Positions 47,640 to 48,691 of a DNA stretch of 64,000 bases are shown piece after piece (within the stretch, counting starts at the first letter, position 1; each line of letters opens with the position of its first letter). The notes beneath the pieces are model-generated. The model saw only the letters and a list, made by a program, of their open reading frames with translations, had not been told where the DNA came from and ran no database searches. This DNA is from Bacteroidia bacterium (lineage in GTDB: Bacteria; Bacteroidota; Bacteroidia; Bacteroidales; Paludibacteraceae), in contig RZYM01000004.1 in the NCBI GenBank assembly GCA_009930305.1, forward strand, positions 62,001 to 126,000. The letters run 5' to 3'. A program made the position numbers and the translations under genes.

Positions 47640-48572
47640 TTAGAACCAGCGTTTCTTAATAAAGAATCCGGTAGTGAAGGCAGTTATTAATATTGATGTT
47701 AAAATAACAATCAAGAATGTCCAATTAAAAATTGTAGTTCCTGATTCTAAGTTCATACCAAAATAACTTGCTATCAATGTAGGCATCATTAATACAATAG
47801 ATATTGTCGTTAAACGTTTCATAACAACATTCAAATTATTTGATATGACTGATGCGTAGGCATCCATCATTCCACTTAGAATGTCGCTATATATATTTGT
47901 CATTTCCAAAGCCTGTTTTGATTCAATTTCAACGTCCTCAACAAGTTCCGGATCGTATAAATCTTTTGTATTACGTAAATTTTTAAGCCTATGAGTCAGT
48001 ATTTCGTTTCCACGAAGCGAAGTCGTGAAAAAAACAAGGCATTTCTCTAATTTTAGCAAGGTTTGTAAATCTTCATTCCGAATAGAATTTTCGAGTTGCT
48101 TTTCTGCAATTTTTGTACGATTGTTAATTTGTTTCAAGTACTTCAAAAACCATATACTTGATGACAAAAGCAGACGAAATACAAAGTTTAAATTATCTGT
48201 TCGTTCAATATTTTTGCGTTTGGTATATTGTATAAAGTCAGTTATAAGATCTGTTTGATAGAAACACACAGATACAAATACATCGTCCTTAAAAATTATA
48301 CCTAGAGGCACCGTAGTAAATGGAACAGAGTTAAAATCTTCTGTTTCTTTACAAGGTATACGCATTAAAATAAAACACCAGCCATCTTCAACTTCGATAC
48401 GAGGTCTTTCGTCCATATCTTCAATATCTTCGTAAAAAGCAGAAGGTACGTGCAATTCATTTATAATGTAATCAGCATCGCTTTGAGTAGGTTTTACAAT
48501 ATTAACCCAGCAGTTGGGTTCCCATTGTTGGCAGGGAACAAGTCCGTTCCCGTTTTTCAAAAAGGTTCTCAT
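47640..48572 (-). CDS. corA: CorA-family magnesium transporter
   Basis: C-terminal MMPTLIASYFGMNLESG (YGMN-like motif), two TM helices; start at MRTFLKNG preceded by GGAGGAAAACC. Confidence 0.93.
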   Translation of the reverse strand: MRTFLKNGNGLVPCQQWEPNCWVNIVKPTQSDADYIINELHVPSAFYEDIEDMDERPRIEVEDGWCFILMRIPCKETEDFNSVPFTTVPLGIIFKDDVFVSVCFYQTDLITDFIQYTKRKNIERTDNLNFVFRLLLSSSIWFLKYLKQINNRTKIAEKQLENSIRNEDLQTLLKLEKCLVFFTTSLRGNEILTHRLKNLRNTKDLYDPELVEDVEIESKQALEMTNIYSDILSGMMDAYASVISNNLNVVMKRLTTISIVLMMPTLIASYFGMNLESGTTIFNWTFLIVILTSILITAFTTGFFIKKRWF

Positions 48573-48579
48573 TGGTTTT

Positions 48580-48674
48580 CCTCCAAATGTTAAAAGAATG
48601 GAGGAGACCAAATCCCTCCATTCTAAATGATTGTTTGTTCCGGATGATAATCGTCCATGTTTATTTTAGAATGG
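48580..48674 (-). ncRNA. Candidate structured 5' leader (RNA switch) of corA
   Basis: CCATTCTAAA (48665-48674), TTTAGAATGGAGG (48615-48627), TCCTCCATTCT (48595-48605) and TGGAGGA (48579-48585) can form mutually exclusive stems of 10, 10 and 7 bp; last contains the SD. Confidence 0.6.
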
Positions 48675-48683
48675 TTACGGCTG

Positions 48684-48691
48684 CAAATGTA
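48684..48691 (-). promoter_or_regulatory. Bacteroidota -7 element (TACATTTG) for corA
   Basis: TAnnTTTG match just upstream of the structured leader. Confidence 0.5.

Follow-up and report, generated by a model that had tools for sequence, protein, structure and literature searches.

In this study, we analysed the leader of a corA gene in a window of 64,000 nucleotides (the whole stretch of Paludibacteraceae DNA under consideration), and we propose that it is probably a translational attenuator controlled by a leader peptide. Sequence comparison establishes an upstream open reading frame (uORF) with a conserved acidic start, mutually exclusive helices that covary, a register between one of these helices and the uORF stop codon, and targets that are confined to Mg2+ transport. 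We infer Mg2+ as the signal, the direction in which it would act and the choice between pausing and drop-off of the ribosome. The acidic leader peptide is the most conserved part of the leader and was overlooked in the initial annotation; therefore, the ribosome and its nascent chain are likely to be the sensor. The leader appears to belong to a conserved, apparently undescribed family of leader-peptide switches that precede genes for Mg2+ transport and occur in Bacteroidales as well as in some further Bacteroidota.

The features of the locus are listed in Table 1. The corA product matches Pfam PF01544 at 1.5e-44 as well as CorA structures; it scores 96 bits against the NCBIfam CorA equivalog cut-off of 200.75, and Mg2+ is its putative substrate. 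The box TACATTTG presumably acts as promoter, a role that we assign from the known Bacteroidota consensus. Of 107 non-redundant leaders, 88 have TTTG in the 60 nt before the uORF, with a median of 28 nt from the end of TTTG to the uORF ATG. The uORF of the window has 11 codons, is placed between the TACATTTG box and segment A, and has its stop codon inside the 5' edge of A. Segments 0, A, B and C were found at the sites where they had been annotated: 0:A and A:B each form 10 bp without a mismatch, and B:C comprises 7 bp over the Shine-Dalgarno (SD) sequence. B:C is lengthened by UUGGU/ACCAA, and this extension takes in the first nucleotide of the start codon as well. The energies in the window are -14.7 kcal/mol for A:B, -15.1 kcal/mol for B:C with its extension and -8.5 kcal/mol for 0:A, and the free leader folds as 0:A together with B:C. 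Compared with dinucleotide shuffles, the z-score of this fold is -2.70, and 2 of 200 shuffles were equally stable.

Table 1. Features of the corA leader in the window (positions counted from its first nucleotide) and groups of loci discussed in the text.
Feature	Position	Strand	Remarks
TACATTTG, candidate Bacteroidota-type -7 promoter box	48684..48691	minus	direct reading of the sequence
Segment 0, CCAUUCUAAA	48665..48674	minus	forms a 10-bp stem with A, restricted to this genome
uORF MDDYHPEQTII*, acidic leader peptide	48623..48658	minus	unannotated; stop UAG at 48625-48623
uORF codon 6 (NCG)	48643-48641	minus	
Segment A, UUUAGAAUGGAGG	48615..48627	minus	partner of B in the ON state; in this genome alternatively of 0
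UUGGU, 5' extension of B	48607..48611	minus	pairs with ACCAA 48576-48572 at the corA start
Segment B, UCCUCCAUUCU	48595..48605	minus	pairs with A or C
Segment C, UGGAGGAAAACCAAUG	48570..48585	minus	SD core GGAGG 48584-48580, spacer, corA AUG 48572-48570
corA, regulated gene	47640..48572	minus	310-aa CorA-family divalent cation transporter, GMN motif
Loci with ksgA overlap			L050, L060, L061, L066, L080, L083, L088, L090, L092, L095-L097, L099, L122, L123, L133, L134, L150
Loci with PRC-MgtE_N-CBS gene			L286-L292, L300-L302, L309-L315, L319, L321-L323, L326

An M-D-[D/E] N-terminus precedes corA in all 15 members of the genus that have this gene (L001-L015), in variants such as MDDYHPEQTII, MDDYHPDCFTV, MDDYHPEKEV, MDDYYPNNYCNL, MDDYHPEQLENQ and others. 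Scanning of GTDB contigs with the pattern ATGGACGAYTAYCAYSCNGA gave at least 120 loci. Among the matches listed, most come from Bacteroidales, where corA lies about 85-135 nt downstream; they include Prevotella, Paraprevotella, Alloprevotella, Hoylesella, Segatella, Palleniella and Paludibacteraceae. Listed matches in haloarchaea, Alphaproteobacteria and others were N-termini of long ORFs and were rejected as chance. As an unbiased test, 386 Bacteroidales genomes were searched with the CorA protein as the only criterion; 83 hold a close homologue, and 68 corA upstream regions were taken from this search. A short uORF beginning with M-[D/E]-[D/E/G] is present in 53 of these 68 regions (78%), compared to 3.4% in dinucleotide shuffles and none on the reverse strand; in 15 of the 68 a recognisable uORF is absent. 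The 53 non-redundant leaders from this search start with MDD (38), MDE (12), MDG (2) or MEE (1), and 39 of them carry Pro within residues 3-7. Besides MDDYH, leaders start with MDDSNPR, MDDPNSR, MDDSIPR, MDDSLPP, MDEGPYHS, MDEVPDY, MDDTPYQ, MEEGPYHS and MDGVP. The peptides thus have in common that positions 2-3 are acidic and that Pro often stands at positions 4-6, and the remainder varies. Since the peptide ends differ in sequence and length (8-17 aa), the function was placed in the first ~7 residues. In a wider sample of the class, a uORF was found at all six close CorA loci of non-Bacteroidales families (MDDYYYSLVLN, MDDYYSEMLN, MDDYYPKN, MEDYYPKN, MDDSQRKYY and MDDYPADG), and the more distant CorA genes mostly lack one; MDDDH ORFs at about -34 of distant CorA homologues were discounted as probable overlaps with corA itself. 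In one family (L224, L227, L229 and L230) a second ORF of ~30-35 aa, whose start has a hairpin that resembles B:C, lies between an MDDGP uORF and corA.

Structure tests were run on 107 non-redundant leaders, in which A:B and B:C are conserved, covary and share B. This bears out the two-state leader of the initial annotation, which would hide or expose the corA ribosome-binding site (RBS). Against shuffles, the mean z-score is -2.49 for A:B (69% of leaders in the best 5%) and -2.71 for B:C (78% in the best 5%). Partners were exchanged between loci as a test of covariation: true partners pair with -16.6 kcal/mol for A:B and -15.7 kcal/mol for B:C, exchanged partners with -10.7 and -9.6 kcal/mol, respectively, and the control pairs uORF:B, uORF:C and A:C gave no such signal in the same leaders. 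The helix sequences are diverse, with 79 distinct A:B helices (at least 7 bp) and 94 distinct B:C helices (at least 6 bp) in which the partners still match. Examples from relatives are GAAUGGAGG/CCUCCAUUC, GAAUAGAGG/CCUCUAUUC and GAACAAAGG/CCUUUGUUC for A:B; B:C pairs include UUGGU/ACCAA, GUACUAU/AUAGUAC and UUGUAC/GUACAA, and the B extensions of relatives pair by sequences other than UUGGU/ACCAA. At least four bases of B are common to both helices in 101 of the 107 leaders, and in 98 a B:C helix of at least 6 bp buries the RBS. Conservation in relatives had been expected for all four segments; by the exchange test it extends to A:B and B:C but not to segment 0, which was rejected as a conserved element (-7.2 kcal/mol, compared to -6.9 kcal/mol with exchanged partners). 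The strong SD sequence had been noted as unusual for the clade, in agreement with earlier work (PMC9976891), yet 93 of the 107 corA starts have an SD-like core, compared to one of the 107 uORFs.

The position of A relative to the uORF is likewise conserved. In the 107 leaders, pairing of A begins, at its 5' end, with the first nucleotide of the uORF stop codon (median 0 nt, 5-95% range -6 to +7), and this register is kept although the uORFs span 8-17 codons. Such a register is what a switch that depends on ribosome position needs. In silico, the corA start was more accessible with A freed (ribosome at codon 5) than with the ribosome at the stop codon in 90 of the 107 leaders, compared to 42% with shuffled spacers; the mean gain in accessibility was small (0.08).

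In the proposed model, a ribosome would initiate on the uORF directly after the promoter. With ample Mg2+ it would pass MDDYHP, reach the stop codon and cover A, so that B could pair with C and the RBS and start of corA would be closed (OFF). Under low Mg2+, the ribosome would be slowed or destabilised by the acidic N-terminus while on codons 2-7, in the manner of intrinsic ribosome destabilisation (IRD); A would then be free, A:B could form and the corA start would be open (ON). In the genome of the window, 0:A may give an additional default OFF state as long as the uORF is empty. Acidic residues among the first residues, by which IRD peptides are defined (PMC9718836; PMC11282234), are found in these leaders. 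DD alone is milder than the known IRD tracts. In equilibrium stability, B:C often equals or exceeds A:B, as it does in the window, and the ON state would therefore need co-transcriptional folding or a held ribosome. Since a clean drop-off in the window would let 0:A and B:C re-form, a pause fits better at this locus.

The same type of leader was found in front of other genes. In 18 Paludibacteraceae-type loci (Table 1), an MDDYH uORF overlaps the start of ksgA/rsmA, whose ATG lies at +22 in another frame in 17 of the 18, and ksgA is followed by a second gene of the CorA family wherever the locus extends far enough (by Pfam for L092). Since a ribosome paused over codons 4-6 would sit on the ksgA AUG, drop-off fits better at the ksgA-corA loci. 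Further targets were searched for with the pattern of an MD[D/E]xP leader after TTTG. Several matches inside or across other genes were rejected as chance; the targets comprise seven MgtE genes and 24 distinct PRC-MgtE_N-CBS genes (26 loci, two of them duplicates), with MgtE assigned by phmmer to Pfam-verified MgtE and some targets by reading of their N-termini. A gene of the Nramp family follows the PRC-MgtE_N-CBS gene in all five cases examined. One of these Nramp proteins was compared with solved structures and matched 7qia with 375 bits, compared to 99 bits for MntH structures; we take 7qia to be the Mg2+ Nramp of Eggerthella lenta. The 424-aa protein with PRC-barrel, MgtE_N and CBS domains resembles a cytosolic partner that would gate an Nramp Mg2+ transporter. 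One leader precedes an MgtA-type Mg2+-translocating P-type ATPase (1207 bits, cut-off 611). Another, an MDDYHAE leader with a 41-aa uORF (L180:1501-1900), precedes a CNNM-CBS-CorC gene in a genome whose corA has no uORF; no second case was found in that family. In a separate locus (L308, genome G493), a MDEGPATRLLTVSMER leader stands before a 460-aa ORF that is porin-like by eye, followed by an unrelated gene; this is possibly an outer-membrane route for Mg2+. In the non-CorA leaders (n=33), the z-scores of A:B (-1.83) and B:C (-2.27) are weaker than in the corA set, with an A:C background of 10/33.

Magnesium is the common factor of the targets, which fall into five unrelated transporter families. 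Of the metal-sensing RNA suggested in the initial annotation, the link to metal is much strengthened by these families; a stand-alone RNA built on segment 0 is not, as this segment is unconserved. An M-box was present in two of 109 Bacteroidales genomes (L336 and L337), in both ahead of an MgtE-like ORF, and pattern searches of these two found no MDDY or MD[D/E]xP leader. It seems more likely than not, with somewhat less assurance than for the corA leader itself, that one family of acidic leader peptides controls much of the Mg2+ uptake of Bacteroidota (CorA, MgtE, Nramp-type, MgtA and CNNM). The ribosome, destabilised on M-D-D/E-x-x-P at low Mg2+, would be the sensor, coupled to SD-hiding translational switches that replace the rare M-box.

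Potentially, the same switch could respond to a general signal, i.e., the activity of an EF-P/EttA-like factor, amino-acid supply or ribosome stress. Acidic and Pro-containing starts respond to such factors in E. coli (PMC11282234). Furthermore, codon 6 is a near-invariant NCG in the 79 MDDY leaders (GCG in 48 of 48 with Ala, CCG in 18 of 22 with Pro, TCG in 4 of 5 with Ser), which suggests a component of decoding rate. In the leader set, base pairing to A, B or C does not account for this fixed codon. As a cause of the fixed codons, a helix between A and uORF codons 4-6 was considered; it is suggestive at some loci and unsupported over the whole set. For codons 3-8 with A, the counterpart of region 1 with region 2 in mgtQ, the mean z-score is -0.59 with 17% in the best 5%, the pairing is not favoured over synonymous recodings, and it is clear at some loci only. 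However, a general signal is unlikely in view of targets limited to Mg2+ transport in unrelated families and of leaders that share no amino acid except D/E at positions 2-3.

An RNA that binds the metal itself and selects 0:A with B:C or A:B, independently of uORF translation, would also be consistent with a two-state structure over the corA start and with Mg2+ transporters as targets. Such a stand-alone riboswitch is nevertheless very unlikely. In Rfam, the window leader had no match that reached the gathering score, and with E relaxed to 1 no meaningful hit appeared either, in line with the annotated absence of a described Mg2+ riboswitch class. Moreover, there is no conserved aptamer core, the short helices having locus-specific sequences, and conservation is highest at the beginning of an ORF, whereas segment 0 is unconserved.

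It seems highly improbable that the leader attenuates transcription, either with A:B as intrinsic terminator or, like E. coli corA, with a Rho site that is uncovered when the uORF is translated. UUUU follows A:B in the window, which had led to the suggestion of a terminator, and corL and mgtL work via Rho (PMC11552253). However, at least five T within the 7 nt after B occur in only two of the 107 leaders, so the intrinsic terminator was rejected, and the RBS buried by B:C represents a translational platform. Finally, it is barely plausible that ATGGACGA is conserved as a nucleotide element (a binding site or initiation signal) and not for a peptide: codon 2 is GAC in 102 of the 107 leaders and codon 6 is NCG for Ala, Pro or Ser alike, but codon 3 (GAT, GAC, GAA or GAG), His (CAC or CAT) and Pro5 (CCG, CCT or CCA) vary while residue or charge is kept, and an in-frame stop remains at the edge of A across all uORF lengths.

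The attenuator controlled by the leader peptide is our preferred reading. In the open-access literature, we found neither an account of Mg2+ sensing by Bacteroidales, a major group of gut bacteria, nor a described Bacteroidota corA or MDDYHP leader. If the model is true, ribosome stability at low Mg2+ would be a general metalloregulatory sensor and not an enterobacterial peculiarity, the leader would name likely Mg2+ transporters in many species, and the presence of an SD sequence on corA in a clade that ignores SD would be explained. Ribosomes of Bacteroidia hide the anti-SD and largely ignore SD sequences (PMC9976891). Another gene of this clade with a strong SD is rpsU, which is autoregulated by ribosomes lacking bS21 (PMC9976891); rpsU has no leader peptide or alternative helices, whereas the SD core of corA forms one arm of B:C. 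The M-box (ykoK, RF00380) regulates corA, mgtE, mgtA and Nramp-related Mg2+ transporter genes (PMC4072509), and the leaders described here have the same transporter classes as targets. Unlike them, the M-box is a metal-binding RNA, and its covariance model gave no match in the window or in the genome it comes from.

Closer parallels are found in enterobacteria. As in mgtL and corL, which precede mgtA and corA of E. coli/Salmonella, a leader peptide with early acidic residues or Pro stands before Mg2+ transporter genes, including corA (PMC11282234; PMC11552253). MgtL carries EPDP, ribosomes pause or dissociate on acidic residues close to the N-terminus, and destabilisation of the ribosome at low Mg2+ was proposed for MgtL (PMC11282234); IRD is suppressed by Mg2+ (PMC9718836). 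However, mgtL and corL act through Rho-dependent termination of transcription, whereas the leaders described here form a translational platform. In this respect they resemble mgtQ of Salmonella, an 8-aa ORF with Asp2 and Glu5, where stem-loops 1:2 and 3:4 alternate with 2:3 and mgtB translation is on with 2:3 (PMC8092293). Both systems have a short uORF with early acidic residues before a Mg2+ transporter gene and control translation, and both use mutually exclusive stem-loops, 3:4 of mgtQ hiding the RBS (PMC8092293). They differ in that mgtQ lies between genes of an operon, whereas the uORF is located at the 5' end of the mRNA in the present case, and in that region 1 and mgtQ overlap, whereas segment 0 lies upstream of the uORF and is unconserved. 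Furthermore, the conserved MDDYH/MDxGP peptide and the multi-family regulon set the present leaders apart from mgtQ, which belongs to a different phylum and has no sequence relation to them. As far as can be told, the Bacteroidota leaders did not descend from the mgtQ, mgtL or corL attenuators and would work like mgtQ and mgtL with an unrelated sequence.
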